A stretch of DNA of 64,000 bases from Roseivirga seohaensis (lineage in GTDB: Bacteria; Bacteroidota; Bacteroidia; Cytophagales; Cyclobacteriaceae): positions 62,001 through 126,000 of the forward strand of contig NZ_LRPB01000012.1 of NCBI RefSeq assembly GCF_001592945.1. The letters run 5' to 3'. The position numbers were made by a program, and so were the translations under genes. How positions within the stretch are numbered: the first letter of the stretch is position 1; the number at the start of each line of letters is the position of its first letter. Of this stretch, positions 32,756 to 58,675 are shown one piece after another. A model generated the notes under the pieces. The model was not told the DNA's origin. It made no database searches and saw only the letters and a program-made list of their open reading frames with translations.

Positions 32756-33403
32756 TTAAAGCTCAATCACCTCGTTTTGAATCGCCCATTTTACAAGGCC
32801 GACTGAGTTTTTAAGCTCTAACTTCAGCATAATATTTCCTCGGTGACTTTCTACGGTGTGGGTGCTGATGGATAGTTCGTCTGCAATTTCTGCAGTGGTT
32901 TTTTCTTGGCAGATCAGTTGAATAATCTGGATTTCACGCTTAGTGAGTAAGTCTTTTTTTGAAAAACTGCTCGATGATTTTTTATTATCCGCATCAAAAA
33001 AGGTAGACATCAACATAGGATCGAAGAAATTTCTTCCCTGCATTACTTCCGATATAGCTGTTAGAATATTGGCTTTACTCGAATTTTTGAGTAGAAAACC
33101 AAAGGCTCCGTTTTTGATCATTCGCTTGGCCAGCCTAGGGTTGTCGTGCATGCTCAAGGCAATTACCCTAATGTTTGGGTAGTTTTTGCTCAGGTATGCC
33201 GTGCATTCCAAACCGTCCATTTCAGGCATGTTGATGTCCATCAATATTAAATCAACAGGCTGAGATTCTACTTTAGAAATCACTTCTTTTCCGTTCGATG
33301 CCCCTCCTATAAATTCAAGGTGTTCGGTAGTGCTAATGATGGCCTCTAAGCCATCAATAATTACTTGATGATCGTCTGCTACTAAGATTTTAATTTTATC
33401 CAT
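32756..33403 (-). CDS. NarL/FixJ-family response regulator
   Basis: 215 residues. Receiver domain with VADDHQVI (acidic pocket) and phosphoacceptor Asp56 in LILMDINMPEMDG, then a LuxR-type HTH (KREIQIIQLICQEKTTAEIA, SISTHTVESHRGNIM). Its start overlaps the end of the histidine kinase gene by 8 bases, so the pair is translated together. The target genes are unknown. Confidence 0.94.
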   Translation of the reverse strand: MDKIKILVADDHQVIIDGLEAIISTTEHLEFIGGASNGKEVISKVESQPVDLILMDINMPEMDGLECTAYLSKNYPNIRVIALSMHDNPRLAKRMIKNGAFGFLLKNSSKANILTAISEVMQGRNFFDPMLMSTFFDADNKKSSSSFSKKDLLTKREIQIIQLICQEKTTAEIADELSISTHTVESHRGNIMLKLELKNSVGLVKWAIQNEVIEL

Positions 33404-35153
33404 GTTGTAACGGAATATTTATTTTGAAGCTTACCCCATTTCCTTCTGTACTATCAAATGTGAGCTTCCCTTTCAAAATGTCAATTCGAGAAGCGATGCT
33501 CTTGAGTCCAAGTCCATTCTTAATTTTGGTTTTGTCAAAGCCAACTCCATTGTCTTGGTACTCAATAATATATTCATCTTTGATTTTTTTCATTTCAATT
33601 TGAATGCTAGAAGCTTGTGCGTACTTAAGAGTGTTGTTTACTAGCTCTTGAATTACTCGATAAATGAGTACTTCACTAGACTCTTCGAAATCGCCTACTT
33701 CATAACTTAACTTTTCTTGAATTTCAATTTGAGATGAAGCCGTTACATTGTCAAAAAGATCGAGCATGGCTTCTTCTAAGCCTAATTTGCTTAAGCTGGC
33801 AGGAACCATATTGTGCGAAATTCTGCGTACTTCCGAACAGGCATTATCAATTTGACCTAGTGAATTTTGAAATGCATTTTTGTCTTCTACATTATCTTCA
33901 AAGTTACTCAAACGCATTTTTATACTTGTAAGCAGAACACCGATTCCATCATGTAAATCTTTGGCCACACGCTTTCTTTCATTTTCTTCACCCAAAACCA
34001 TTGCTCTTAAGTTTTCTAACTTTTTGCGTTGAATTGTTCTTGAAAAAAGGAGGTAACTAATAATCAGAAGCATGATTAAAGCGATGGTAATTCCTCCAAA
34101 AATTTTAGCCCTTTGTGTTGCCCAAATGGCTGTTTCTTCTGCTTCATCCAGCTGTTTATCGGTTCTGTAATCTTCAGTGATTTTGGCTACTGATTCTGTT
34201 CTTTGTTTTGCTAAAAAACCTACTACGGTGTCGTACCGTAATTTTTGATACGCCAAGGCATTTTTATAATCTTCCAGCCCTTCGTATGCTTTAGAAAGCT
34301 GTGAGTAGGCGGCCATGTATTTCTGCCAATCTCCGTTTGAAGCTAACAGCTTAATGTTATTTTCCAATAAAGGAATGGCTTCAGAAAATCGTTGCTCATT
34401 AATCATGGCTTGAGCAATGGAGTTTGCCGTGTTGATTTGAGAAACTACCTGATTGGTTTGGTCATAAATGGTTTTGGCCTTAAGAAGAAAATATATGGAG
34501 CTATCATTTTGCTTCAATATGTTATAGGCCGTGCCCATCATATAGTTTAGGTTTGCCTGAAAATTGATATCGCTTTTCTGGTTTAATAGCGCGAAACTCT
34601 TTCTGTAATTATCGACTGCTTCTCTGCTTTTTCCGGTTCTGAATAAGAAGTTTCCCAAAGAGTAGTGAGATTTATAAAGTTCAGAGGCTAGTCTGTTTTC
34701 TTCCCTAATTTTTTTAGCCCGATTGATAAAATCGAGTGATTGGTCGTTTTCTCTAAGCGTTAGGTAAACTCCACCAATATTGTCTAAAATATCGGCCTCT
34801 AACCTTATATGTTCCGGTTTTCCTTCTAGTATTCTCAATAAGCCAGTATAAATCAAAACAGCACTGTCATACTGGCTAGTAACCGTAAAAAATCTGCCTT
34901 TTACTTTTTCGAAATGAATTCTGTCTACTTCAGAAAGCGATGTTTTATCTACCTGTTGTAGAAAGTAAAGTGCAGAATCGGTATTGGTTAGTGTAAATAT
35001 TTCAGCCAATTCAATGGCTGTACTCGGCTGCTTATTTTGGGTATAATTTTCCTTTAGGCTGTCGGTTTTTTGCGATTGGCCAAAAGAAAGGAAGGGTGTA
35101 ATCACCATTAAAGCGATTACACCTATGAATATCCTATTTACAAATCTAGACAT
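33396..35153 (-). CDS. TPR-containing histidine kinase (HisKA_3 type)
   Basis: 585 residues. Signal peptide (about 1-25), periplasmic tetratricopeptide-like repeats to about 310, a single membrane helix (349-371), then a HisKA_3 domain with His401 in KDLHDGIG and an HATPase_c domain (NNTLKYAQA, ENGVGF-type EYQDNGVGFD, GLGLKSIASRI). The TPR part presumably senses an unknown envelope signal. Start overlaps the preceding stop as TAATG. Confidence 0.93.
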   Translation of the reverse strand: MSRFVNRIFIGVIALMVITPFLSFGQSQKTDSLKENYTQNKQPSTAIELAEIFTLTNTDSALYFLQQVDKTSLSEVDRIHFEKVKGRFFTVTSQYDSAVLIYTGLLRILEGKPEHIRLEADILDNIGGVYLTLRENDQSLDFINRAKKIREENRLASELYKSHYSLGNFLFRTGKSREAVDNYRKSFALLNQKSDINFQANLNYMMGTAYNILKQNDSSIYFLLKAKTIYDQTNQVVSQINTANSIAQAMINEQRFSEAIPLLENNIKLLASNGDWQKYMAAYSQLSKAYEGLEDYKNALAYQKLRYDTVVGFLAKQRTESVAKITEDYRTDKQLDEAEETAIWATQRAKIFGGITIALIMLLIISYLLFSRTIQRKKLENLRAMVLGEENERKRVAKDLHDGIGVLLTSIKMRLSNFEDNVEDKNAFQNSLGQIDNACSEVRRISHNMVPASLSKLGLEEAMLDLFDNVTASSQIEIQEKLSYEVGDFEESSEVLIYRVIQELVNNTLKYAQASSIQIEMKKIKDEYIIEYQDNGVGFDKTKIKNGLGLKSIASRIDILKGKLTFDSTEGNGVSFKINIPLQHG

Positions 35154-41462: not shown

Positions 41463-42128
41463 TTATGCGTTCAGAATGGCGTTTGCCATAATTAAATCTT
41501 CAGCAGTGGTGATTTTGATGTTCTTATAGTCCCCCTCAATCAAATTGATTTTTTCACCCATGTGTTCTAATACTGAGGCATCATCGGTAAATGTGTGGTT
41601 TTCTTTTACTTCGAAAGCCTTTTTAATCAGTTGAATCTGAAAAGTTTGAGGGGTTTGAATAAGCTGGAATTGGCTTCTATCGACAACCTTATTGTTTTCA
41701 CCTTCAATAAATCGAATGGAGTCTTTCAGCGGAACACTGGTTACGGCATTTCCTTTATCTGCGGCTACTTTGAAAGATTCTTTAATGATTTCAGTGGAAA
41801 CAAAAGGTCGGACACCATCATGAATCGCTACCAAGCCATTACCGTGAATGGCGTTGAGCCCATTTTTTACAGATTGAAATCGGCTATTGCCACCATTTAC
41901 AATTTGATGCTTAATAGTGAATTTATGCTTTTCGCAAAGCCCTCTCCAAAATGGTATTTGAATTTCGGGCAGAACCAAAATCAACTTTAAACTTGCAAAG
42001 GCCGCAATGTAAGCCTCAATGGTGTGCATCAGAATGGGCTTGCCACCAATATCAATAAACTGCTTAGGAATATCAGACTTCATTCGGGTACCACTACCCC
42101 CAGCTACTATGATGGCGTATTTTTGCAT
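41463..42128 (-). CDS. ispD: 2-C-methyl-D-erythritol 4-phosphate cytidylyltransferase
   Basis: 221 residues. IVAGGSGTRMKSDIPKQFID is the nucleotide-binding signature; AIHDGVRPFVS and FTDDASVLEHMG complete the IspD pattern. It makes CDP-methylerythritol in the non-mevalonate isoprenoid pathway. It heads the leftward run, 55 bases before the DUF1080 lipoprotein start, but is functionally unrelated, so a promoter may lie in between. Confidence 0.95.
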   Translation of the reverse strand: MQKYAIIVAGGSGTRMKSDIPKQFIDIGGKPILMHTIEAYIAAFASLKLILVLPEIQIPFWRGLCEKHKFTIKHQIVNGGNSRFQSVKNGLNAIHGNGLVAIHDGVRPFVSTEIIKESFKVAADKGNAVTSVPLKDSIRFIEGENNKVVDRSQFQLIQTPQTFQIQLIKKAFEVKENHTFTDDASVLEHMGEKINLIEGDYKNIKITTAEDLIMANAILNA

Positions 42129-42483: not shown

Positions 42484-43665
42484 ATGATTTTTCCGAAAGA
42501 AATATTAGAAAACACATCACAGGCCTTTAACTATAAGAACCAAGTAAGGAGTAACGTGATATTTATACTTGCTTCTTTCATCATTATAGCAGGGTTGGGA
42601 GCAACTCCTTTTTTGAAAACAGATATTTATGTCTCGGCCAATGGGATTATTAAACCGAATAAGGAAAGAAGAAATCTGGTCGCACCAGTAACTGGTTTTC
42701 TTGAAACTTATAACTTAAAGGATAACCAAGAAGTACTAGCGGGTGATACACTATTAAAGTTGGATAACTCAAGAGTAACAGAACAAATTCAGAAGATAGA
42801 AGCAGAAAAGCGAATTGTAGAGGACAATTTGGCGGATCTAAACTATTTGATTTTTGCTAAAGAAGTTGACAGGAATAAGTTACAACTTCCCACCAATAGA
42901 ACTAACTATTTGAAATTTGAGCAGAAATTAAGAGAGTTGGATTTGCGTATGGCTCAGTCGACTACAATTCTCGATCGACAGGAAAGGCTGTTTGATGAAG
43001 GAGTTATTTCGATTGCAGAGTATCAAAAAGTGACTTTTGAAAACAATCTGCTTCAAAATGAAAAGGAGTTGTTGATAAAAGACCAGAGGTACTTTTGGGA
43101 AAGTGAAAGAAAAAGTGAGACTCAAAAAATATTGGAGTTTGAAAGTTCCGCCACAGCCCTAAAGCGCAACTTGAATGAATATTTCTTATTAGCTCCCATA
43201 TCGGGCACTCTTTTTAATGTAAAAGGATTTGAAGTCAGTGGTTATATCAATGCAGGGGAAGTTGTCGCAGAAATCTCTCCCTCAACTGACCTCATTGTTG
43301 AGACTTATATATCTCCAAGTGATATAGGCTTAATTACGCTTGGGGCTGGCGCAAAGTATCAGATTGATGCCTACAACTATAACAATTGGGGTCTCGCTTC
43401 AGGCAATATCATTGAAATTAGCAATGACCTAGAAGTAATTAACAATGCACCTGTTTTTAAAGTGCGCAGCAGCCTTGATCAATCACAACTCAGTTTACGT
43501 AATGGCTTTGTAGGGGATTTAAAAAAGGGGCTAACCCTTAGGGCGAGATACCATATAACCGAGAGATCTTTATTTGATCTGCTATATGACAAAGTTGATG
43601 ACTGGTTGAATCCAGCGCAGAATAATACTCCAAATCAAAATCTTAGTAAAAATGGCCTCTATTAA
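42484..43665 (+). CDS. HlyD-family membrane-fusion protein
   Basis: 393 residues. Short cytoplasmic N-terminus, membrane helix (about 24-42), a lipoyl-like half (VAPVTGFLETYNLKDNQEVLAGDTLLKLDN), a coiled-coil hairpin (about 85-220), the second lipoyl half (APISGTLFNVKGFEVSGYI), then beta-barrel domain. This is the periplasmic adaptor of a type 1 peptide secretion system. Its stop overlaps the start of the ABC exporter by 14 bases. No TolC is encoded nearby, so a shared outer-membrane channel must be used. Confidence 0.93.
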   Translation: MIFPKEILENTSQAFNYKNQVRSNVIFILASFIIIAGLGATPFLKTDIYVSANGIIKPNKERRNLVAPVTGFLETYNLKDNQEVLAGDTLLKLDNSRVTEQIQKIEAEKRIVEDNLADLNYLIFAKEVDRNKLQLPTNRTNYLKFEQKLRELDLRMAQSTTILDRQERLFDEGVISIAEYQKVTFENNLLQNEKELLIKDQRYFWESERKSETQKILEFESSATALKRNLNEYFLLAPISGTLFNVKGFEVSGYINAGEVVAEISPSTDLIVETYISPSDIGLITLGAGAKYQIDAYNYNNWGLASGNIIEISNDLEVINNAPVFKVRSSLDQSQLSLRNGFVGDLKKGLTLRARYHITERSLFDLLYDKVDDWLNPAQNNTPNQNLSKNGLY

Positions 43666-45826
43666 AGTAAAGCAACATGACATTACGGACTGTGGGGCTG
43701 CATGTTTAGCTTCAATAGCGGCACACTATGACAAGGGTTTGCCAATTTCAAAGATTAGGCAAATGGCAGGTACCGATAAGAAAGGTACTAATGTGCTTGG
43801 AATGGTTGAGGCAGCTGAAAAGTTGGGATTTGAGGCAAAGGGAGTTAGAGGAGAATTTGATAGTTTGTTTAAAATTCCTTTGCCAACCATTGCTCATGTA
43901 ATAGTCAAAGAAGTATTGCATCATTTTGTGGTGATTTATAAGGTTGACAAATCTCATATTACCGTGATGGATCCAGGAACGGGGCAACTAGAGAAAAGAA
44001 CGCACGCTGAATTCAAAAAAGAATGGACAGGAGTATTGGTTCTTTTAATGCCTAATGAAGATACCTTTATAGCATCTAACGAAAAAGTCTCTGTTTATAA
44101 AAGAATGTGGTTCCTTTTAAAGCCACATAAATCAGTTCTTTTTCAAGCGTTTATAGGTGCCATAGTCTATACCTTATTGGGGTTATCTACTTCCATTTAC
44201 ATTCAAAAAATCACAGATTTTGTTTTAGTAGACGGTAATACAAACCTGCTCAATCTATTAAGCATTATTATGGTTGTGCTTCTGGTCGCTCAAGTTTTAT
44301 TGGGCGTTTATAAAGATCTTTTTCTCTTAAGAACAGGACAACAAATTGATGCTAGACTGATACTTGGTTATTATAAACACTTACTCAAGCTACCTCAACA
44401 GTTTTTTGATACCATGCGTGTTGGTGAAATAGTATCGAGAATTGGTGATGCGGTTAAAATCAGGGCTTTTATCAATGAAGTGTCTCTTTCGCTGACTGTT
44501 AATGTGCTCATTGTTATCTTCTCTTTCGGCCTCATGTTTTCCTATCACTGGAAGTTGGCCATGATTATGCTGGCAATTGTTCCTTTTTACTTGATCATCT
44601 ATTTTATCACCAATAGGCTGAATAAAAAGGTAGAACGAAAAGTGATGGAAAAAGCGGCTGATTTGGAAAGCCAATTGGTGGAAAGCCTAAATTCAGTGGG
44701 TACAATTAAGCGTTTTGGGCTTGAAGGCTTTGCGAATGTTAAAACAGAGACACGTTTTATTGATTTACTCAAAACAGGATATAAGTCTGCTTTGAATGGA
44801 ATGTTTACCGGGACAAGTACAAGCCTAATCTCCCGAACCTTCACTATAATTTTACTTTGGTCAGGCTCTTACTTTGTTATTGACAGAAGTATTACTCCAG
44901 GGGAACTTCTTTCTTTCTACGCCATTATAGGTTATTTCACTGGGCCAGTATCATCGCTAGTAGGGGCAAATAAAACAATACAAAATGCTTTAATAGCGGC
45001 AGATAGGCTTTTTGAAATTATGGACTTAGAACGAGAAGAAACGGAAAATAAAGTAAAATTGACTAGGGAGAATATTGGAGATATTAAGTTTTCCAATGTT
45101 AATTTCAGGTACGGAACTCGGGTTCAGGTGTTCGAGGATTTCAATTTGTTGTTAAGTAGAGGAGAAATTACTGCTATTGTAGGCGAAAGCGGTTCAGGAA
45201 AGTCTACGCTGGCCTCCTTGCTTCAAAACATATATCCATTGAACAGCGGTAGCGTTGTTATTGGACAGTTAAACCTGAAATATATTGACAACGCAAGCTT
45301 AAGGGCTTTGGTGGGGGTTGTGCCTCAGAAAATTGATCTGTTTGCTGGAAATGTAATTGAGAATATTGCGGTGGGTCAGTTTGAACCAGACATGGAGCGA
45401 ATACTTGAGATTTGCGAGTCCATTGGTATTCTTGAGTTTGTGGAGGCCTTGCCTAACGGCTTTCATACCTACTTAGGAGAAAATGGAGCTACTCTTTCTG
45501 GAGGGCAAAAACAGAGGATAGCCATTGCTAGGGCGCTTTATCAAAAACCTGAAATTCTTATTTTCGATGAAGCTACCTCCTCATTGGACACAGCTTCCGA
45601 AAGTTATATTCAAATGACTATTGAAAGGCTAAGAACAGAGAACAAGACAATTATAATCATTGCACACAGATTAAGTACTGTGGTAAATGCCGATAAGATA
45701 ATTGTTATGGAAAAAGGGCAGGTAATTGAAGAGGGTTCTCACTTTAAGCTCTTCGAAAAGAAAGGCAAGTATTATGATTTGTGGAGGCAGCAAATGCCAG
45801 AAGCTTTTAATAAAATAAGTGCATAA
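43652..45826 (+). CDS. C39-peptidase ABC exporter (PCAT) for double-glycine peptides
   Basis: 724 residues. N-terminal C39 peptidase: KQHDITDCGAACLASIAAHY with catalytic Cys14, His91 in HHFVVIYKV and Asp107 in MDPGTG. Then six membrane helices (about 160-440) and an ABC domain with Walker A GESGSGKST, LSGGQKQRIAIARAL and ILIFDEATSSLD. It cleaves after GG in leader peptides and exports the mature peptide. The substrates are very likely the two small genes downstream. Confidence 0.95.
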   Translation: MASIKVKQHDITDCGAACLASIAAHYDKGLPISKIRQMAGTDKKGTNVLGMVEAAEKLGFEAKGVRGEFDSLFKIPLPTIAHVIVKEVLHHFVVIYKVDKSHITVMDPGTGQLEKRTHAEFKKEWTGVLVLLMPNEDTFIASNEKVSVYKRMWFLLKPHKSVLFQAFIGAIVYTLLGLSTSIYIQKITDFVLVDGNTNLLNLLSIIMVVLLVAQVLLGVYKDLFLLRTGQQIDARLILGYYKHLLKLPQQFFDTMRVGEIVSRIGDAVKIRAFINEVSLSLTVNVLIVIFSFGLMFSYHWKLAMIMLAIVPFYLIIYFITNRLNKKVERKVMEKAADLESQLVESLNSVGTIKRFGLEGFANVKTETRFIDLLKTGYKSALNGMFTGTSTSLISRTFTIILLWSGSYFVIDRSITPGELLSFYAIIGYFTGPVSSLVGANKTIQNALIAADRLFEIMDLEREETENKVKLTRENIGDIKFSNVNFRYGTRVQVFEDFNLLLSRGEITAIVGESGSGKSTLASLLQNIYPLNSGSVVIGQLNLKYIDNASLRALVGVVPQKIDLFAGNVIENIAVGQFEPDMERILEICESIGILEFVEALPNGFHTYLGENGATLSGGQKQRIAIARALYQKPEILIFDEATSSLDTASESYIQMTIERLRTENKTIIIIAHRLSTVVNADKIIVMEKGQVIEEGSHFKLFEKKGKYYDLWRQQMPEAFNKISA

Positions 45827-45839
45827 AAATTAGAGTGTT

Positions 45840-46169
45840 ATGACAGGTCTGATTAAAAAATTCGAAATGGTTGAAAGGGTACATCACTTAATTAGAAAGA
45901 GGGCCACAGGTACACCGGAGGAACTTGCAGAAAAATTGGGGGTTTCTCAGGCCACCGTTTTTAGAATTATTGAAGGAATGAAATCATTAGATGCTCCAGT
46001 GGTTTACGATTTTTCTATACGAAGCTATTATTACGAATATCCAGTTGAATTCAATTATGGTTTTAAATCAGACAAGGATTGGGGTGAAATCAATGGAGGT
46101 TTAGTTGTCAGTTCAAATTTTTTTAAAAATAATTTCCGACTCTCATTTTTTGAGAGTGCTATGTTTTAA
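45840..46169 (+). CDS. HTH protein with internal double-glycine motif
   Basis: 109 residues, 13 bases after the exporter. Residues 10-45 form an HTH of DeoR/MarR-like type (GTPEELAEKLGVSQATVFRI). The next part is YYYEYPVEFNYGFKSD, followed by WGEINGGLVVSSNFF at 81-95, which looks like a double-glycine processing site, and a hydrophobic tail. Similar small HTH proteins with a C-terminal GG stretch occur by bacteriocin genes in Bacteroidota (from memory). It could be a regulator that is also cleaved or exported. A hairpin (46139-46157) lies in the end of the ORF. Confidence 0.8.
   Translation: MTGLIKKFEMVERVHHLIRKRATGTPEELAEKLGVSQATVFRIIEGMKSLDAPVVYDFSIRSYYYEYPVEFNYGFKSDKDWGEINGGLVVSSNFFKNNFRLSFFESAMF
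46139..46157 (+). terminator. hairpin at the end of the HTH gene
   Basis: ACTCTCA, loop TTTTT, TGAGAGT. A perfect 7-bp stem but no good T-run follows, so it may attenuate or process the RNA rather than end it. Confidence 0.35.
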
Positions 46170-46242
46170 TCTTATAACGGTAATGAAAACGTGCACTAAT
46201 TAGTTACTGGTAAATAAGTGTTTAACAATTAAATTTTTGAAA

Positions 46243-46455
46243 ATGAAAAATTTAGAAAGATTTGAACCTATGGAACTAGGAGTTCAAGAGATGAGCCAAA
46301 TTAATGGAGGAGGTTGGGGGTCAGTGTGGAAGGCAGTTAAGTGGTTTGCTGAAGTGTCGGGTCTGGCAGACATGGCTAATGACTTTGTTGATGGCTTGAA
46401 GGAAGGGCTGAAAGAATCAGCAGAGGATGATATACGTCCTCTAGGTAATAACTAA
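46243..46455 (+). CDS. double-glycine precursor peptide 1
   Basis: 70 residues from the ATG at 46243 (a TTG two codons upstream is unlikely). Leader of 23 residues ending MSQINGG, with the typical L/M pattern (FEPMELGVQEMSQINGG). The mature part of 47 residues begins GWGSVWKAVKWFAEVSGLAD, is amphipathic, lacks Cys, and has a more acidic end. This is a class-II bacteriocin-like or signal peptide. The dedicated exporter lies 400 bases upstream. No similar named bacteriocin recognised. Confidence 0.87.
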   Translation: MKNLERFEPMELGVQEMSQINGGGWGSVWKAVKWFAEVSGLADMANDFVDGLKEGLKESAEDDIRPLGNN

Positions 46456-46493
46456 TATTTATTTTAGTTGAAATTTTTAAAAAAAACAAAACG

Positions 46494-46661
46494 ATGAGAG
46501 ATTTAAATAAATCGGAGATGAAGTCAATAAATGGCGGGGGCATCCTCAGTTCATTTGGGAAGTTTGTAGGTAAAGTATTGGGCAATATGATGGAAGCCTA
46601 TGGAGATGCTTATAATAGACACATTGAATATGGAGGATCACATGGCTCAATGAGGGGTTAA
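46494..46661 (+). CDS. double-glycine precursor peptide 2
   Basis: 55 residues, too short for common ORF cut-offs. Leader of 15 residues MRDLNKSEMKSINGG, then a 40-residue mature peptide starting GILSSFGKFVGKVLGNMMEA, ending Gly/His-rich (EYGGSHGSMRG). No Cys. The GxxxG pattern in the helix (GKFVGKVLG) is common in two-peptide bacteriocins. It lies 38 bases after peptide 1 and before a strong terminator; the pair may be a two-component bacteriocin. Confidence 0.85.
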   Translation: MRDLNKSEMKSINGGGILSSFGKFVGKVLGNMMEAYGDAYNRHIEYGGSHGSMRG

Positions 46662-46663
46662 TA

Positions 46664-46705
46664 TTTAGGCAAGAGTTTTTTAGCTCTTGCCTAAACTGTT
46701 TTTTA
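46664..46705 (+). terminator. terminator after the precursor peptides
   Basis: TTTAGGCAAGAG and CTCTTGCCTAAA form a perfect 12-bp stem with an 8-base loop, then CTGTTTTTT. It lies 2 bases after the peptide 2 stop. Confidence 0.92.
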
Positions 46706-46882
46706 GGGTTACTTATTTAGAGGGCAAGATGCTGTAAATCAATTATTTATATTTTAATCAAATTTAGAGTTAGAGCCCATAAAAATAAGTGCAGGCTGCT
46801 TTAAAAGGGGTTCAGCTTTTTGTTCTGCGATTTAAGTAAGTAATCCTACTGTTTTTTTAAACTAGGTAATAGCATAAACAAA

Positions 46883-47380
46883 ATGATATATAAACTTCAG
46901 AAAAATTTAGAAAATAAAAGCTTGGCAAACGTAGTTTTTATCTTTTGTGCTATTCAATTAGTAGTAATTATTTTTCTTTCTGTTGTTGTTTCGAATGTTG
47001 ATCCTAGCTTAACGGAAATAGATTGGTTAAATGATCTAAGTTTGTTTGATATATTTTTGCTTAGTGTTATAGTAGTTCCGTTAGTTGAGACTTGTATTTT
47101 TCAATTCTTCATTATTGAAAGTACTTTTCTTTTTATAGAAAATAGCTCATGGGCTGAGAAAATTGCTTTGATTTTGTCATCCATATTATTTGGTCTTTCT
47201 CATTATTACAATATCTACTACATTGTAATAATGATATTCATCGGACTATTCTATTGTTGGATCTACATCTTTATTAGAAATTGGAAGTCAAGAAAAAGCG
47301 CTTTTTGGTCATTGACTCTTATCCATGCTACCAATAATCTATTCGCTTTTATTGTAGATGATGTCCTAAAACTTTCTTGA
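46883..47380 (+). CDS. degenerate CPBP-type membrane protein (immunity candidate)
   Basis: 165 residues with about five membrane helices. CPBP (CaaX/bacteriocin-processing) motifs are recognisable but worn: VETCIFQF where the family has EExxxR, FGLSHYYN for the second, and HATNNL for the third. Loss of the second Glu and the Arg argues against proteolysis. Abi/CPBP proteins are often encoded beside bacteriocins for self-protection. It is beyond the terminator, so it may have its own promoter. Confidence 0.65.
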   Translation: MIYKLQKNLENKSLANVVFIFCAIQLVVIIFLSVVVSNVDPSLTEIDWLNDLSLFDIFLLSVIVVPLVETCIFQFFIIESTFLFIENSSWAEKIALILSSILFGLSHYYNIYYIVIMIFIGLFYCWIYIFIRNWKSRKSAFWSLTLIHATNNLFAFIVDDVLKLS

Positions 47381-47436
47381 TTTTGTAGAATTTAATTTTA
47401 AAAATAGTAAAAAAATCAATTCTAAATTATATTTTA

Positions 47437-47913
47437 ATGATTATTTACAGCATAAAAAAATTAGAAAATGACCTTCAGGCTAGAACTTTATCGCAAAAAC
47501 ATGTTTTTATTTACTTTATTGTTCGAGTAGTTTTGATTGGGCTTGGGTCCTTAAATTTTTCTGGAGATGAATTGATAGACCCATGGATGACAAACTTGGC
47601 TGTTTTACTTGAGTTAATGATTACAGTTGGTTTTACTTTGCATTTGTTTAATCTCTGTAAGGAGGCCAATCAAGCAGAGAGGTTTTGGGAATATTATTTT
47701 AGCATAGGATTTGTTATTGGCGTTAGGCTGTTGGTAATTGGATTAATCTTAATAATACCAGTTTCAGTCTTTATACTGCTTTTAATTCCAGATTTTATGA
47801 ATGATTTTGGTTATATATTCGAGTTAGGTTTTACGGCAATAGTTCTTTTTGTTTATTATCTCATGTTTATTAATTCTCTTAACCGTGTTTTAGAAGATAC
47901 TCCCGTTGACTAA
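47437..47913 (+). CDS. four-helix membrane protein of the peptide locus
   Basis: 158 residues with about four membrane helices. No family recognised. Its first residues (MIIYSIKKLENDLQARTLSQ) resemble those of the CPBP-like neighbour (MIYKLQKNLENKSLANVV). No catalytic residues seen. Possibly another immunity or accessory protein. The gap to the previous gene is 56 bases. Confidence 0.6.
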   Translation: MIIYSIKKLENDLQARTLSQKHVFIYFIVRVVLIGLGSLNFSGDELIDPWMTNLAVLLELMITVGFTLHLFNLCKEANQAERFWEYYFSIGFVIGVRLLVIGLILIIPVSVFILLLIPDFMNDFGYIFELGFTAIVLFVYYLMFINSLNRVLEDTPVD

Positions 47914-47917
47914 TGAT

Positions 47918-48010
47918 ATGAAAAATAAATTAGTAGCAGAATCTGAGATTCAGTTTTTACTAGGAATGTTAATGGTTCTCGGTGCCGTTATTTTATTTAC
48001 TGGAGGTTAG
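47918..48010 (+). CDS. 30-residue transmembrane micro-peptide
   Basis: ATG at 47918, 4 bases after the previous stop: MKNKLVAESEIQFLLGMLMV then LGAVILFTGG. It has a polar N-terminus and one hydrophobic helix. Too small for ordinary annotation; the tight spacing and clean helix suggest a real gene. Its function is unknown. Confidence 0.5.
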   Translation: MKNKLVAESEIQFLLGMLMVLGAVILFTGG

Positions 48011-48780: not shown

Positions 48781-49524
48781 ATGTCATTTCTGCTAATTCT
48801 TTTATTTTTCAGTAGTGCTTTATCGGGCATTTCACCTGTTGTATTTTCTCAAAACTTTGATGACAAGATGGTTTTTGTTGAGGGCAATGATTCCATCAAC
48901 TCCTTCTACATGGACAAGTATGAGACTACCATGGCTGAATTTCAGCAATTTGTTGAAAGGACAGGGTATAAAACAGTGAGCGAAGTCTTAGACTCAGGTA
49001 AAGTTTATAACCCCTATGCTAAAATGGTACAAGGGGTTAACTGGCGTCATGATATTTATGGTAGAAGGATTCCACTAGAAAGGTATGGAGAATTACCTGT
49101 AACCAGATTGTCTTTAAAAGATGCTAAAGCCTATGCAGAATGGGCGGGGAAACGAATACCCACTAAAGAAGAATGGCTGTATGCAGCGAAAGGTGGTTCA
49201 AAAAGTGAATCATTCAAGTATCCCGGTGGTAATAACGCTCGTCAAGTAGGCTGGTTTGATGGAAATTCTCGTGAGACACTGATGCCGATAGGTCAGAAGA
49301 TACCGAATGAATTAGGGTTATATGATATGGGCGGAAATGTAACGGAAATGGCGCTCGAACCTGACGGAAGCGGGGTGAATGGACTAGGTGGGGCTTTCTT
49401 TTTAGACAAAGATTACTTTGAAATGGAGTTTATTCATAATGGATTTTATACGTCTAAAAAGTTTTTCGACAAATCGGCCTTACCTTTTGCAGGTATTCGT
49501 TTGGTTTCAAAGGAGCAGAAATGA
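48781..49524 (+). CDS. SUMF1/formylglycine-generating-enzyme-like exported protein
   Basis: 247 residues, signal peptide (ends VVFSQ). SUMF1 features: FYMDKYETTMAEFQQFVE, LPVTRLSLKDAKAYAEWAGK, RIPTKEEWLYAAKGG and NELGLYDMGGNVTEMAL. The Cys residues of the formylglycine-generating site are absent, as in most Bacteroidota relatives, so it is a structural or binding homologue (GldK/J-like fold). Overlaps the next gene by 4 bases (ATGA). Confidence 0.88.
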   Translation: MSFLLILLFFSSALSGISPVVFSQNFDDKMVFVEGNDSINSFYMDKYETTMAEFQQFVERTGYKTVSEVLDSGKVYNPYAKMVQGVNWRHDIYGRRIPLERYGELPVTRLSLKDAKAYAEWAGKRIPTKEEWLYAAKGGSKSESFKYPGGNNARQVGWFDGNSRETLMPIGQKIPNELGLYDMGGNVTEMALEPDGSGVNGLGGAFFLDKDYFEMEFIHNGFYTSKKFFDKSALPFAGIRLVSKEQK

Positions 49525-51119: not shown

Positions 51120-52166
51120 TCAGATAATCAACATGGCATCGCCATAGCTGAAGAATCTATACCCTTCTTTTTGAGCTACTTTGTAGGCGTTCATTGTTTT
51201 TTCATACCCTCCAAAAGCGGCTGCCTGCATTAGCAAAGTAGATTCTGGTAAATGGAAGTTTGTAATCAAAGCGTTACAGATTTTAAATTCATATTCAGGA
51301 AAAATGAATTTGTCTGTCCAAGCTTCGTTGGCTTTCAATCGGCCACCAGCAGAAACAGACGATTCTAAAGCACGCATAGATGTTGTTCCTACAGAACATA
51401 CCCTTTTCTTATTGTCTAAAGCCTTGTTTACCGCATCGGCTGTAGATTGAAGGATAGTATAGTTTTCAGAATCCATTTTGTGTTTGGTAAGGTCTTCAAC
51501 ATCAACCTGACGGAAAGTGCCTAAACCAATATGGAGTGTTATTGAAGCAATGTCAACACCTTTAATTTCTAAGCGCTTCATTACTTGTTTTGTAAAGTGC
51601 AAGCCTGCTACTGGAGCCGCTACCGCACCTATATTCTTAGCATATATTGTCTGAAAACGCTCTCTGTCTTCAGGTTCTGTTTCTCTCGGAATAGTTCTAG
51701 GAAGCGGTGTTTCGCCTAAAGTGTCGATGGTTTTGTAAAACTCTTCATCTGTTCCATCAAAAAGGAAACGAATTGTTCTACCTCTCGAAGTGGTGTTGTC
51801 GATTACTTCGGCCACTAATTCGCCCTCGCCAAAATAGAGTTTATTACCTACTCGTATTTTTCTAGCAGGATCTACAAGAACATCCCATAGGTGCATTTCT
51901 TGATTAAGCTCTCTAAGCAAGAAAACCTCAATTTTAGCCCCTGTTTTTTCTTTTTGGCCATAAAGACGAGCAGGAAAAACTTTGGTGTCGTTGTTCACCA
52001 GCACATCACCTTCGTCAAAATAGTCCACAATATCCTTGAACATCTTGTGCTCAATCTCTCCCGTATCGCGGTGCAAAACCATTAATTTTGATTCGTCTCT
52101 GTTTTCGGTAGGATACTTTGCAATCTTATCTTCAGAAAGATCGAATTTAAATGCTGATAACTTCAT
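51120..52166 (-). CDS. queA: S-adenosylmethionine:tRNA ribosyltransferase-isomerase
   Basis: 348 residues. [32 protein letters not shown] and [18 protein letters not shown] are hallmarks of QueA, which makes epoxyqueuosine in tRNA wobble position 34. Monocistronic. Its promoter is likely the TATCTTTG at 52209-52216. Confidence 0.96.
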
Positions 52167-56897: not shown

Positions 56898-57584
56898 ATG
56901 GGTGCTAAGCAAAACCACCGAGTGCTTGTGGTAGACGATGATCCGGATATCCTTGAACTACTTAAATACAACCTTGTAAAAGAGGGCTACGAAGTAAAAG
57001 TAGCTGAAGATGGCAAAAAAGGAGTGCAAATAGCAAAAACATTTCAGCCAGAATTGGTTTTGTTAGACATTATGATGCCCAACCAAGATGGAGTTGAAAC
57101 TTGTCGACAAATTAGAGAGTTACCAGAAATGGTAAATGCTCATATTACTTTTTTGACAGCTAGGGCAGAGGAGTATTCTGAAGTAGCGGCATTTGATGCA
57201 GGCGCTGACGATTACATTACCAAGCCAATTAAGCCTCGTGCTTTAATGAGCCGTATTAGCGCTCATTTTAGAAAGGAGAAAAAAGGGAAGTCTATTCCAA
57301 AAGTTTCTATTGGTGATCTTACAATCGATAAAACCAGTTACACAGTAACTATATTAGACAATCAATTTACCCTTCCAAAAAAGGAATTCGAATTGCTCTA
57401 TTTCCTTGCTCAAAATCCAAACAAAGTTTTCAGTCGTGATGATTTATTGCAGAACATTTGGGGAACCGATGTTTATGTATTGGCCAGAACGGTAGATGTA
57501 CACATTAGAAAGGTGCGCGAGAAAATTGGAGATGGTTATATCACTACTGTTAAAGGGGTGGGTTATAAGTTTGAATCTAATTAA
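56898..57584 (+). CDS. OmpR/PhoB-family response regulator
   Basis: 228 residues. Receiver with VVDDDPDI and Asp57 in LLDIMMPNQDG, Lys in ITKPIKP, then a winged helix (LPKKEFELLYFLAQNPNKVF, RTVDVHIRKVREKIG). The kinase starts 2 bases after its stop. Confidence 0.95.
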   Translation: MGAKQNHRVLVVDDDPDILELLKYNLVKEGYEVKVAEDGKKGVQIAKTFQPELVLLDIMMPNQDGVETCRQIRELPEMVNAHITFLTARAEEYSEVAAFDAGADDYITKPIKPRALMSRISAHFRKEKKGKSIPKVSIGDLTIDKTSYTVTILDNQFTLPKKEFELLYFLAQNPNKVFSRDDLLQNIWGTDVYVLARTVDVHIRKVREKIGDGYITTVKGVGYKFESN

Positions 57585-57586
57585 AA

Positions 57587-58675
57587 ATGCTTTTTAACTC
57601 TAAGGCAGTTGCATTGCTTTTGGCTTTCGTTGTGGGGCTTATTACCACAGCGTTTCTGTCTTTAGTTTCCGGAACACCAGTTCAGGCGCTCATTATTGGG
57701 GGCCTGATTTCTTTTGCAGCCACCTATATTTTTGCCTACATAACTTTTGAGTTTTTGGTTTTTAGAGAAATCAGTAAAATTTATGAGGTGCTCAATAAAA
57801 TCCGTAAGAAAAACTTTTCCTTTATTGAAGACGAAGAAGAGCGCAAGTATCTTAATCCGCTAAAAAGAATAAACCAAGAGATTTATACTTATGCTGCGGG
57901 TCGTCAGCGCGAAATTGAAGAACTGAAAAAAGTTGAGGCATTTAGAAGAGAATTTTTGGCAGATGTAAGTCACGAACTGAAGACTCCAGTATTTGCTGCC
58001 CAAGGTTTTGTTCATACGCTTTTGGATGGCGCCATTGACGACAGCAAAGTAAGAATTAAGTTCTTGAAAAGGGCTGCAAAAAGCCTAGACAGCCTAGATG
58101 CGCTGATACACGACCTGCTAACACTCTCTCAAATTGAACTGGGTGAAACTAAAATGCACTTTGAGCATTTCGATATTGTTGAAATGGCCAATGAGGTTTT
58201 AGATCAGTTTGAAAACAAAGTAGAAAGGAAGGGCCTGTACATTGGTTTCGATCAAGAATACAACCATCCGATTTTCGTATATGCCGATTCTGAAAAGATT
58301 TACCGTGTACTGACCAACTTAGTGTCGAATGCCAATAAATACACAGATGAGGGCGACATAATCCTTGGTTTTACAGTTTCTTCGGGCGGTCATGTAACCG
58401 TATCGGTAAAAGATACTGGAATGGGGATTCCACCAGAAGATTTAGGCAGAGTGTTTGAGCGCTTTTTTAGGGTAGAAAAGAGTCGATCTAAAGGAAGAAA
58501 AGGCGGTACAGGGTTAGGTTTGGCCATTGTGAAACACATTATGGAAGCCCACAATTCTAAGGTATCGGTGATTAGTACCTTTGGTAAGGGTTCTACATTC
58601 AGTTTTAAATTACCTTTGTCGAAAGAAGAAGACTTAGATTCGACAGATGATGACGAATTCGAGTCTGAGGATTAA
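57587..58675 (+). CDS. PhoR-like histidine kinase
   Basis: 362 residues. Two membrane helices (about 6-27 and 33-57) with practically no periplasmic loop, a HAMP-like linker, HisKA with His129 in LADVSHELKTP, and HATPase (LVSNANKYTDEG, DTGMGIPPEDLGRVFERF, GTGLGLAIVKHI). The acidic tail (DLDSTDDDEFESED) is unusual. Signal must be read in the membrane or cytoplasm. Confidence 0.95.
   Translation: MLFNSKAVALLLAFVVGLITTAFLSLVSGTPVQALIIGGLISFAATYIFAYITFEFLVFREISKIYEVLNKIRKKNFSFIEDEEERKYLNPLKRINQEIYTYAAGRQREIEELKKVEAFRREFLADVSHELKTPVFAAQGFVHTLLDGAIDDSKVRIKFLKRAAKSLDSLDALIHDLLTLSQIELGETKMHFEHFDIVEMANEVLDQFENKVERKGLYIGFDQEYNHPIFVYADSEKIYRVLTNLVSNANKYTDEGDIILGFTVSSGGHVTVSVKDTGMGIPPEDLGRVFERFFRVEKSRSKGRKGGTGLGLAIVKHIMEAHNSKVSVISTFGKGSTFSFKLPLSKEEDLDSTDDDEFESED

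Follow-up and report, generated by a model that had tools for sequence, protein, structure and literature searches.

How does a bacterium match the making of small secreted peptides to its capacity to export them? The question is raised by positions 42484-48010 of a 64,000-nucleotide stretch of Roseivirga seohaensis contig NZ_LRPB01000012.1 (the window), where genes for an HlyD-family adaptor and a C39-peptidase ABC exporter are followed by a helix-turn-helix (HTH) regulator and two double-glycine (GG) leader peptides, which we call pepA and pepB. We found no account in the open-access literature of how Bacteroidota GG-leader peptide loci switch on. Our proposal is that, within a bacteriocin-type cassette of the mobile kind, the regulator acts on the peptide promoter while also serving as a substrate of the C39 peptidase, which would couple transcription to export. 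Taken as one joint claim, we regard this as an even call.

The proposed mechanism has two arms. In the first, the regulator would control pepA and pepB by binding a palindrome (46139-46157) that covers the -33 region of the pepA promoter. The C39 domain would cut both precursors after GG, the exporter would then export the peptides, and a CPBP-family membrane protein would protect the producer. In the second, the regulator, which has a leader and a GG site of the peptides' kind, should also be bound and cut by the exporter, losing a 22-residue tail after Gly87. Precursors and regulator would compete for the C39 domain, creating feedback. The regulator's activity would then depend on the load on the exporter, and the peptide genes would follow export capacity. 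What computation shows is the gene content, the leader motif, the family-wide tail, and the operator with its code; the cut after Gly87, export of the tail, the feedback, any sign given to the regulation, and the toxic and immunity functions are inferred.

A candidate operator stands at a fixed distance from the peptide promoter. In the window, the palindrome ACTCTCA-TTTTT-TGAGAGT (46139..46157; + strand, like every feature of the locus given below) lies within the regulator's tail codons, and its right arm begins 16 nt before a -7 promoter element, TAATCTTAT (46167..46175), a weak match to the consensus TAnnTTTG. That consensus and the placement of the -7 box at -12 to -5 come from an excerpt of PMC9723704, and on the excerpt's numbering the palindrome spans about -40 to -22. 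A -33 box would lie here, and therefore both an activator and a repressor are possible. We defined strict operators as 7-5-7 palindromes with at least 6 of 7 pairs and a right arm beginning exactly 16 nt before a -7-like element. Thirty of 131 regions at HTH gene ends carry one, with 1.6 expected, and the other offsets from 6 to 30 hold 0-5 palindromes each; 2 of 133 regulators were dropped from these counts, their regions being too short. A looser count over offsets 15-17 finds 32 of 131 regions against 61 of 2620 background segments. Related palindromes precede GG-peptide genes in other genera, and at locus L115 all four sites (4/4) are followed by such a gene. Recognition of the palindrome at peptide promoters by the regulator is, on these comparisons, well supported. 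The operator core is not enriched across the genome (4 palindromic places vs 6 forward matches of the reversed pattern), and with up to 1 mismatch it has no match ahead of the HlyD gene in the window.

Operator arms can be predicted from the regulator's recognition helix. Across 26 non-redundant pairs (one row gapped; shuffle tests ignore relatedness), the second residue after a conserved Ser predicts arm base 4: Arg pairs with G in 11 of 11 cases, Ala with C in 10 of 10 and Ser with C in 4 of 4. The first residue after that Ser predicts arm base 2, with Arg or Lys pairing with G (14/15) and Glu, Gln or Pro with C (9/10). We applied this code out of sample to 40 more loci (set 3; 42 regulators, of which 38 fall below 85% similarity to those already collected), drawn from family and phylum searches in which 30 of 395 phylum genomes matched. 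A class could be predicted for 33 regulators, and the predicted core was found near 9 of them at no more than 1 mismatch in 10, compared with 0.8 for wrong classes, and perfect cores numbered 4 against 0.0. On the Aureibacter plasmid pAT7, two sites of the predicted class AGTGCAA, with one arm mismatch, separate the regulator from its divergent peptide genes; the pAT7 regulator was already in our first set (L029), and these sites lie outside the training data.

Some loci vary the arrangement of regulator and operator. Four Aquimarina loci (L114, L115, L119 and L154) hold two regulator copies, the first without GG and the second with it, and 3-4 operator sites; going by these predicted sites, such loci are small regulons. 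At L033, L185 and L186, with no exporter in the examined DNA and no regulator tail, an operator nonetheless lies just after the regulator gene, and at L033 a GG peptide follows it. Operator and tail are therefore separable traits.

The exporter has the catalytic residues of a C39 peptidase. The 724-aa protein (43652..45826) is PCAT1-like, matching TIGR01193 at 542 bits (cut-off 523.85) and PCAT1 (4ry2) over its full length (E 2.2e-161), and no other protein of the 4.15-Mb genome matches PF03412 at E <= 0.001. Its Cys14, His91 and Asp107, named as catalytic in a preliminary description of this DNA, align with those of 4ry2. The adaptor gene upstream (42484..43665; 393 aa; PF13437, E 1.2e-13) overlaps the exporter gene by 14 bases (43652..43665).

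The regulator is a small winged-helix protein that ends in a leader-like motif and a tail. P0003 (45840..46169; 109 aa; PF01381, E 8.9e-6) carries INGG at residues 84-87 (46089..46100), the predicted C39 site, followed by 22 residues. The preliminary description had noticed INGG; the leader motif around it and the operator are additions of the present analysis. AlphaFold2 models the first 70 or so residues confidently as a winged helix, with pLDDT near 90 across the HTH part, and falls below pLDDT 50 over most of residues 75-109. The family, which spans Bacteroidota and Balneolota loci, has no NCBIfam model: P0003 has no NCBIfam match at E <= 0.001, and the hits of 44 scanned members at that threshold scatter over 7 unrelated regulator-type models, with at most 3 members on each. 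Its commonest Pfam match is the generic HTH_11 (23/44). A fold search returned generic winged helices (NiaR, TM1602, IclR, BirA and DtxR; best E 0.033), and the regulator profile, run against PDB sequences, hit antibody chains for the most part (best E 0.0038), which we judged noise.

The GG site tends to accompany the exporter across loci. Our first set came from HTH searches, of which the family-wide one matched 95 of 196 genomes; from these 70 loci were taken (L015-L084); the second came from an exporter search and comprises 80 named loci, the best 80 of 580 relatives. In set 1, 13 of 14 regulators at loci with both C39 and HlyD have GG (12) or AG (1) after residue 70, and the one exception, truncated at its N-terminus, has GG closer to its start. 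The motif occurs in 2 of 2 HlyD-only, 2 of 9 C39-only and 4 of 47 unlinked regulators of that set. In set 2, where L085 was omitted as a duplicate of L017, GG (38) or AG (8) is present in 46 of 57 regulators at C39+HlyD loci, and the motif in 1 of 1 C39-only and 1 of 2 HlyD-only regulators. The motif is lacking in 11: four are from Aquimarina loci, each the first of two copies of which the second bears GG; L113 and L161 are short open reading frames (ORFs) whose GG comes earlier in the protein; L096 and L156 seem to be truncated; and the other three are L118, L134 and L136. Counting GG after residue 55, 48 of the 51 set 2 exporter loci that hold a regulator have one with GG or AG. Among 31 regulators no more than 200 bp downstream of an exporter, 16 have GG, 9 AG and 6 neither.

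The residues ahead of this GG resemble peptide leaders. We built a leader profile from 96 non-redundant neighbouring peptides and took as controls 1062 GG windows in proteins of at least 250 aa. Forty-five of 47 non-redundant regulator stretches exceed the 95th percentile of the controls, and 44 of 47 that of shuffles. Recognition of the regulator's leader stretch by the C39 domain is likely. Across 48 related pairs, which are not independent, the ratio of nonsynonymous to synonymous rates (dN/dS) is 0.07 in the HTH part, 0.10 in the leader stretch, 0.39 in the tail and 0.01 at GG, the last biased by the choice of GG/AG rows. All 62 linked tails measure 11-39 residues (median 17). Counted naively, tails occur in 63 of 72 linked regulators against 7 of 57 others (Fisher 8e-19); on a 129-row tree, the trait requires 15 changes.

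pepA and pepB look like a two-peptide pair. The preliminary description's two short GG-leader peptides hold up: pepA (46243..46455) encodes 70 aa, 47 of them after GG, and pepB (46494..46661) 55 aa, 40 after GG, and both mature parts lack Cys, as it stated. Among 558 small ORFs of the window (25-110 aa, six frames), no others reach a positive score on a GG-leader profile for which peptides of other loci were used. With the redundancy-reduced profile, pepA scores 7.24, a value reached by 3 of 1062 control GG windows, and pepB 21.34, reached by none (0/1062). Small double-glycine precursors and a C39 exporter with an accessory adaptor, the components of GG-leader class II bacteriocin systems, are thus both present, and the two adjacent precursors fit the class IIb two-peptide type. 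The best NCBIfam models are lactococcin G-beta (NF038034) for pepA, at 27.0 bits, and lactococcin G-alpha (NF038035) for pepB, at 22.8 bits, each under the cut-off of 37. Two is also the most frequent number of peptides per locus (22 of 55 entries, with pepA and pepB entered as two single entries). GxxxG motifs occur in 74 of 125 non-redundant peptides of C39+HlyD loci compared with 46.5 in shuffles (0/1000 reach the observed count). pepB by itself has four (P 0.045), though one peptide proves little.

The sequence ahead of pepA has a stretch in common with other loci. A 5' leader at 46178..46210 carries GTGCACTAA and a possible stem-loop in single folds. Either GTGCACTAA or GCGCGCAAC is common to the window, L015, L031, L105, L106, L110, L117 and L126; single folds mostly place it in a loop whose closing stem varies in sequence. 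Fold z-scores range from 0.54 to -2.30; the window's own value, 0.54, does not set its fold apart from shuffles. RNAalifold, given a poor alignment, returned no consensus pair.

Several observations weigh against our model. By the strict definition, 101 of 131 regions have no operator, and 24 of 33 predicted cores are absent from the stretch searched. No regulator of this kind occurs in the examined DNA of 29 of 80 exporter loci, some of which are short contigs. The window regulator's leader is among the weaker ones, its score being equalled or exceeded by 14 of 1062 controls (1 of 1062 for L017), and has no Leu or Met at -12. Regulator and peptide leaders of one locus are no closer to each other than chance (P 0.16, 55 loci). 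Five starred independent contrasts associate tail with linkage in 1.8 cases, against it in 0.0 and show no difference in 3.2 (means of random pairings); they point the same way as the naive count, in numbers too small to be significant. Set 3 regulators have tails at 17 of 22 C39+HlyD, 2 of 3 HlyD-only, 1 of 3 C39-only and 5 of 10 unlinked loci; linkage is therefore a tendency and no rule, tails being present in 5 of 10 unlinked and absent from 5 of 22 linked regulators. pepA alone, with one GxxxG, shows no excess over chance (P 0.49).

The C-terminal stretch may dock without being cut. It could merely bind the C39 domain, or the GG could be a plain linker and the tail partly a by-product of the operator, a reading that we find doubtful yet credible. 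The operator does lie within tail codons in the window and other loci, the tail evolves faster than the remainder of the regulator, and the window regulator's own leader is weak. In one clade (L042, L052, L055, L059, L062 and L066), KK or KR replaces GG after a leader-like stretch of the LTEKELMSIN type, with a conserved short tail; such regulators may be an uncleavable form that only docks. Against this, GG is the most constrained part of the protein, with the bias noted above, and at L105, L106, L110, L117 and L126 the tails are present and alike though the operator follows the stop codon. It is possible, though again doubtful, that the exporter removes the tail and releases it as a short peptide signal; the message would then be encoded within the transcription factor itself, with the state of export read at the promoter.

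A related and unlikely reading makes the HTH protein a folded-leader precursor in the style of NHLP/Nif11, its tail being the exported product, either a third peptide or a signal. The GG near residue 85, the short tail and the linkage to HlyD and C39 fit NHLP anatomy as outlined in an excerpt of PMC2887384. The operator code and strong constraint on the HTH part instead show a working DNA-binding protein, tailless regulators (L033, L185 and L186) also have an operator, and tails are Leu- and Phe-rich, not Cys/Ser/Thr-rich (Leu 14.5%, Phe 11.7%, Ser 9.4%, Thr 5.3% and Cys 2.5% over the 62 linked tails). No NHLP or Nif11 model appears among NCBIfam matches of P0003 or its 44 homologues at E <= 0.001.

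Of the bacteriocin and signal functions offered by the preliminary description, the first gained support and the second did not. A peptide signalling (quorum-sensing) system is improbable here, even though short exported peptides adjoin a regulator. We found no histidine kinase or response regulator in 42484-48010 (ORFs read, the eight main ones scanned), and thus no counterpart of ComCDE; the nearest kinase- and regulator-like ORFs, as we take them to be, lie at 32756-35153 and 56898-58675. In a relative, G009 (L015), the swap takes in both the peptides and the first gene downstream of them, GxxxG is enriched family-wide, and CPBP proteins are frequent among the downstream ORFs of linked loci. 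Of 61 ORFs scanned, 17 match PF02517, P0006 among them, and 2 match DUF3267; the 61 comprise P0006 and P0007 of the window and 59 downstream ORFs of linked loci, 1 of 60 candidates being omitted as a peptide. Least probable of the readings is that the palindrome is a weak terminator or attenuator between exporter operon and peptide genes, as a terminator scan that lists it (7 pairs, 3 G-C, then GCTATGTTTT) would allow, given its fixed 16-nt spacing to the -7 element, its co-variation with the recognition helix, its copies ahead of separate Aquimarina peptide genes (all four sites in L115) and the out-of-sample prediction of sites.

One relative keeps the cassette's machinery and carries different peptides. 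In G009 the HTH protein is 88%, the exporter 91% and HlyD 78% identical to the window's. Two other glycine-rich peptides replace pepA and pepB, an HExxH-motif protein stands where the window has CPBP, and a four-transmembrane protein is 33% identical to its window counterpart. The preliminary description would have been undercut by peptides not conserved beside the exporter: their sequences are indeed swapped in G009, and their position, leaders and pairing are kept. In G007 (L017, same genus), HlyD, exporter and HTH genes are followed by a pair of GG peptides and a pair of CPBP-like ORFs, of which the second is a weak match. The order on Persicobacter plasmid CP012854.1 is exporter, HTH protein with INGG, two GG peptides and an EExxxR membrane protein; Aureibacter pAT7 (NZ_AP025312.1) carries TolC, HlyD, PCAT and HTH genes with four GG peptides, the TolC-family gene being part of the exporter operon. 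That plasmids of 15 and 49 kb (pAT7 and CP012854.1) carry exporter, tailed regulator and GG peptides suggests that such cassettes move. The P0003 sequence matches three plasmids and, at E <= 1e-4, no phage.

Other loci carry regulator fragments. Ahead of further peptide genes, L031 (8601-8804) and L069 (a 40-aa ORF with TIYGG) hold extra 3' parts of the regulator, consisting of GG and tail only, and in L031 the operator is duplicated as well. These are probable traces of cassette duplication. L106 (JAAEZN010000057.1) comes from a metagenome-assembled genome titled 'Algicola sp.', Pseudomonadota by name, and its regulator clusters with Flavobacteriaceae; this may perhaps be an old flavobacterial use of the name.

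The window cassette fills an integration site. It is flanked by ispD (41463-42128) and queA (51120-52166). The ispD-queA gap is only about 63-79 bp, an empty site, in 12 of 19 Roseivirga genomes compared (in G003 the genes are on separate contigs, and G010 is not resolvable), which is our reason for calling it such a site. From coordinates, the gap measures 8,994 bp in the window, while G009 has 9,072 bp and G012 10,762 bp between the two genes. In the two closest relatives of the window genome, G001 and G002, the distance is 486 and 495 bp. The inserts in the three filled genomes (the window genome, G009 and G012) differ, and that of G012 includes a tailless regulator (L024). Tandem ORFs at the G012 site (L024 10647-14768) resemble a window gene downstream of the cassette (48781-49524), which we presume to be related to formylglycine-generating-enzyme proteins. 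Pfam and NCBIfam scans of eight cassette proteins found no modifying enzymes.

Downstream genes include a likely immunity factor. All the cassette genes listed in the preliminary description are present and lie where it placed them, as does its terminator, a hairpin-like element with a 12-bp stem (46664..46695). The CPBP (Rce1-like) membrane protein P0006 (46883..47380), its first motif degenerate, matches PF02517 at 41.8 bits (cut-off 22.4), bearing out the earlier assignment, and has a 39% identical homologue in cassette L084; it is a likely immunity factor of the producer. P0007 (47437..47913), a 158-aa membrane protein and possible second immunity factor, has a single homologue among compared loci (L015, 33% identical). 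The 30-residue membrane peptide described earlier exists as a hydrophobic ORF (47918..48010). No homologue at E <= 1e-3 occurs in the compared loci, and the ORF may have arisen by chance.

These results describe a regulator family that has no curated model and an operator code from which its promoters can be predicted. Our searches, which covered open-access PMC papers, turned up no regulator with a C39 leader; the excerpt of PMC10352776 names a single HTH gene, whose cluster lacks a C39 transporter, and describes no leader feature. Peptide genes that annotation misses for their small size could be mined from genomes by looking for operator and regulator together. Should the exporter indeed cut the regulator, the arrangement would be a compact way to match the production of toxic peptides to export capacity.

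The cassette combines parts familiar from several known systems. Like the peptidase-containing exporters PCAT1 and ComA, its exporter has the full-length architecture and catalytic residues; unlike them, it is from Bacteroidota and has an HlyD partner. NHLP/Nif11 proteins, in the excerpt of PMC2887384, are folded in their N-terminal domain, carry GG near residue 70-85 ahead of a short C-terminal segment, and cluster with HlyD and C39. The regulator shares all of these features, but its folded domain is a DNA-binding protein with an operator, and its tail lacks the richness in Cys, Ser and Thr of the NHLP/Nif11 core. Class IIb bacteriocins (lactococcin G and enterocin 1071) likewise pair GG-leader precursors that contain GxxxG with a dedicated C39 exporter, whereas the window's host is Gram-negative with an HlyD adaptor, and the model scores of its putative bacteriocins are below cut-off. 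Bacteroidetocins are class IIa-like with a Cys-containing core, in contrast to the Cys-free mature parts of pepA and pepB. CPBP (Abi-type) proteins serve as bacteriocin self-immunity proteins, and in the window too a PF02517 protein adjoins the peptide genes, although with a degenerate first motif. A functional analogy for the proposed coupling is FlgM, an anti-sigma factor whose export by the flagellar type III apparatus couples transcription to export. In both cases a regulator that is an export substrate would link the two processes, FlgM as an anti-sigma factor and the window protein as a DNA-binding protein that would lose only its tail.

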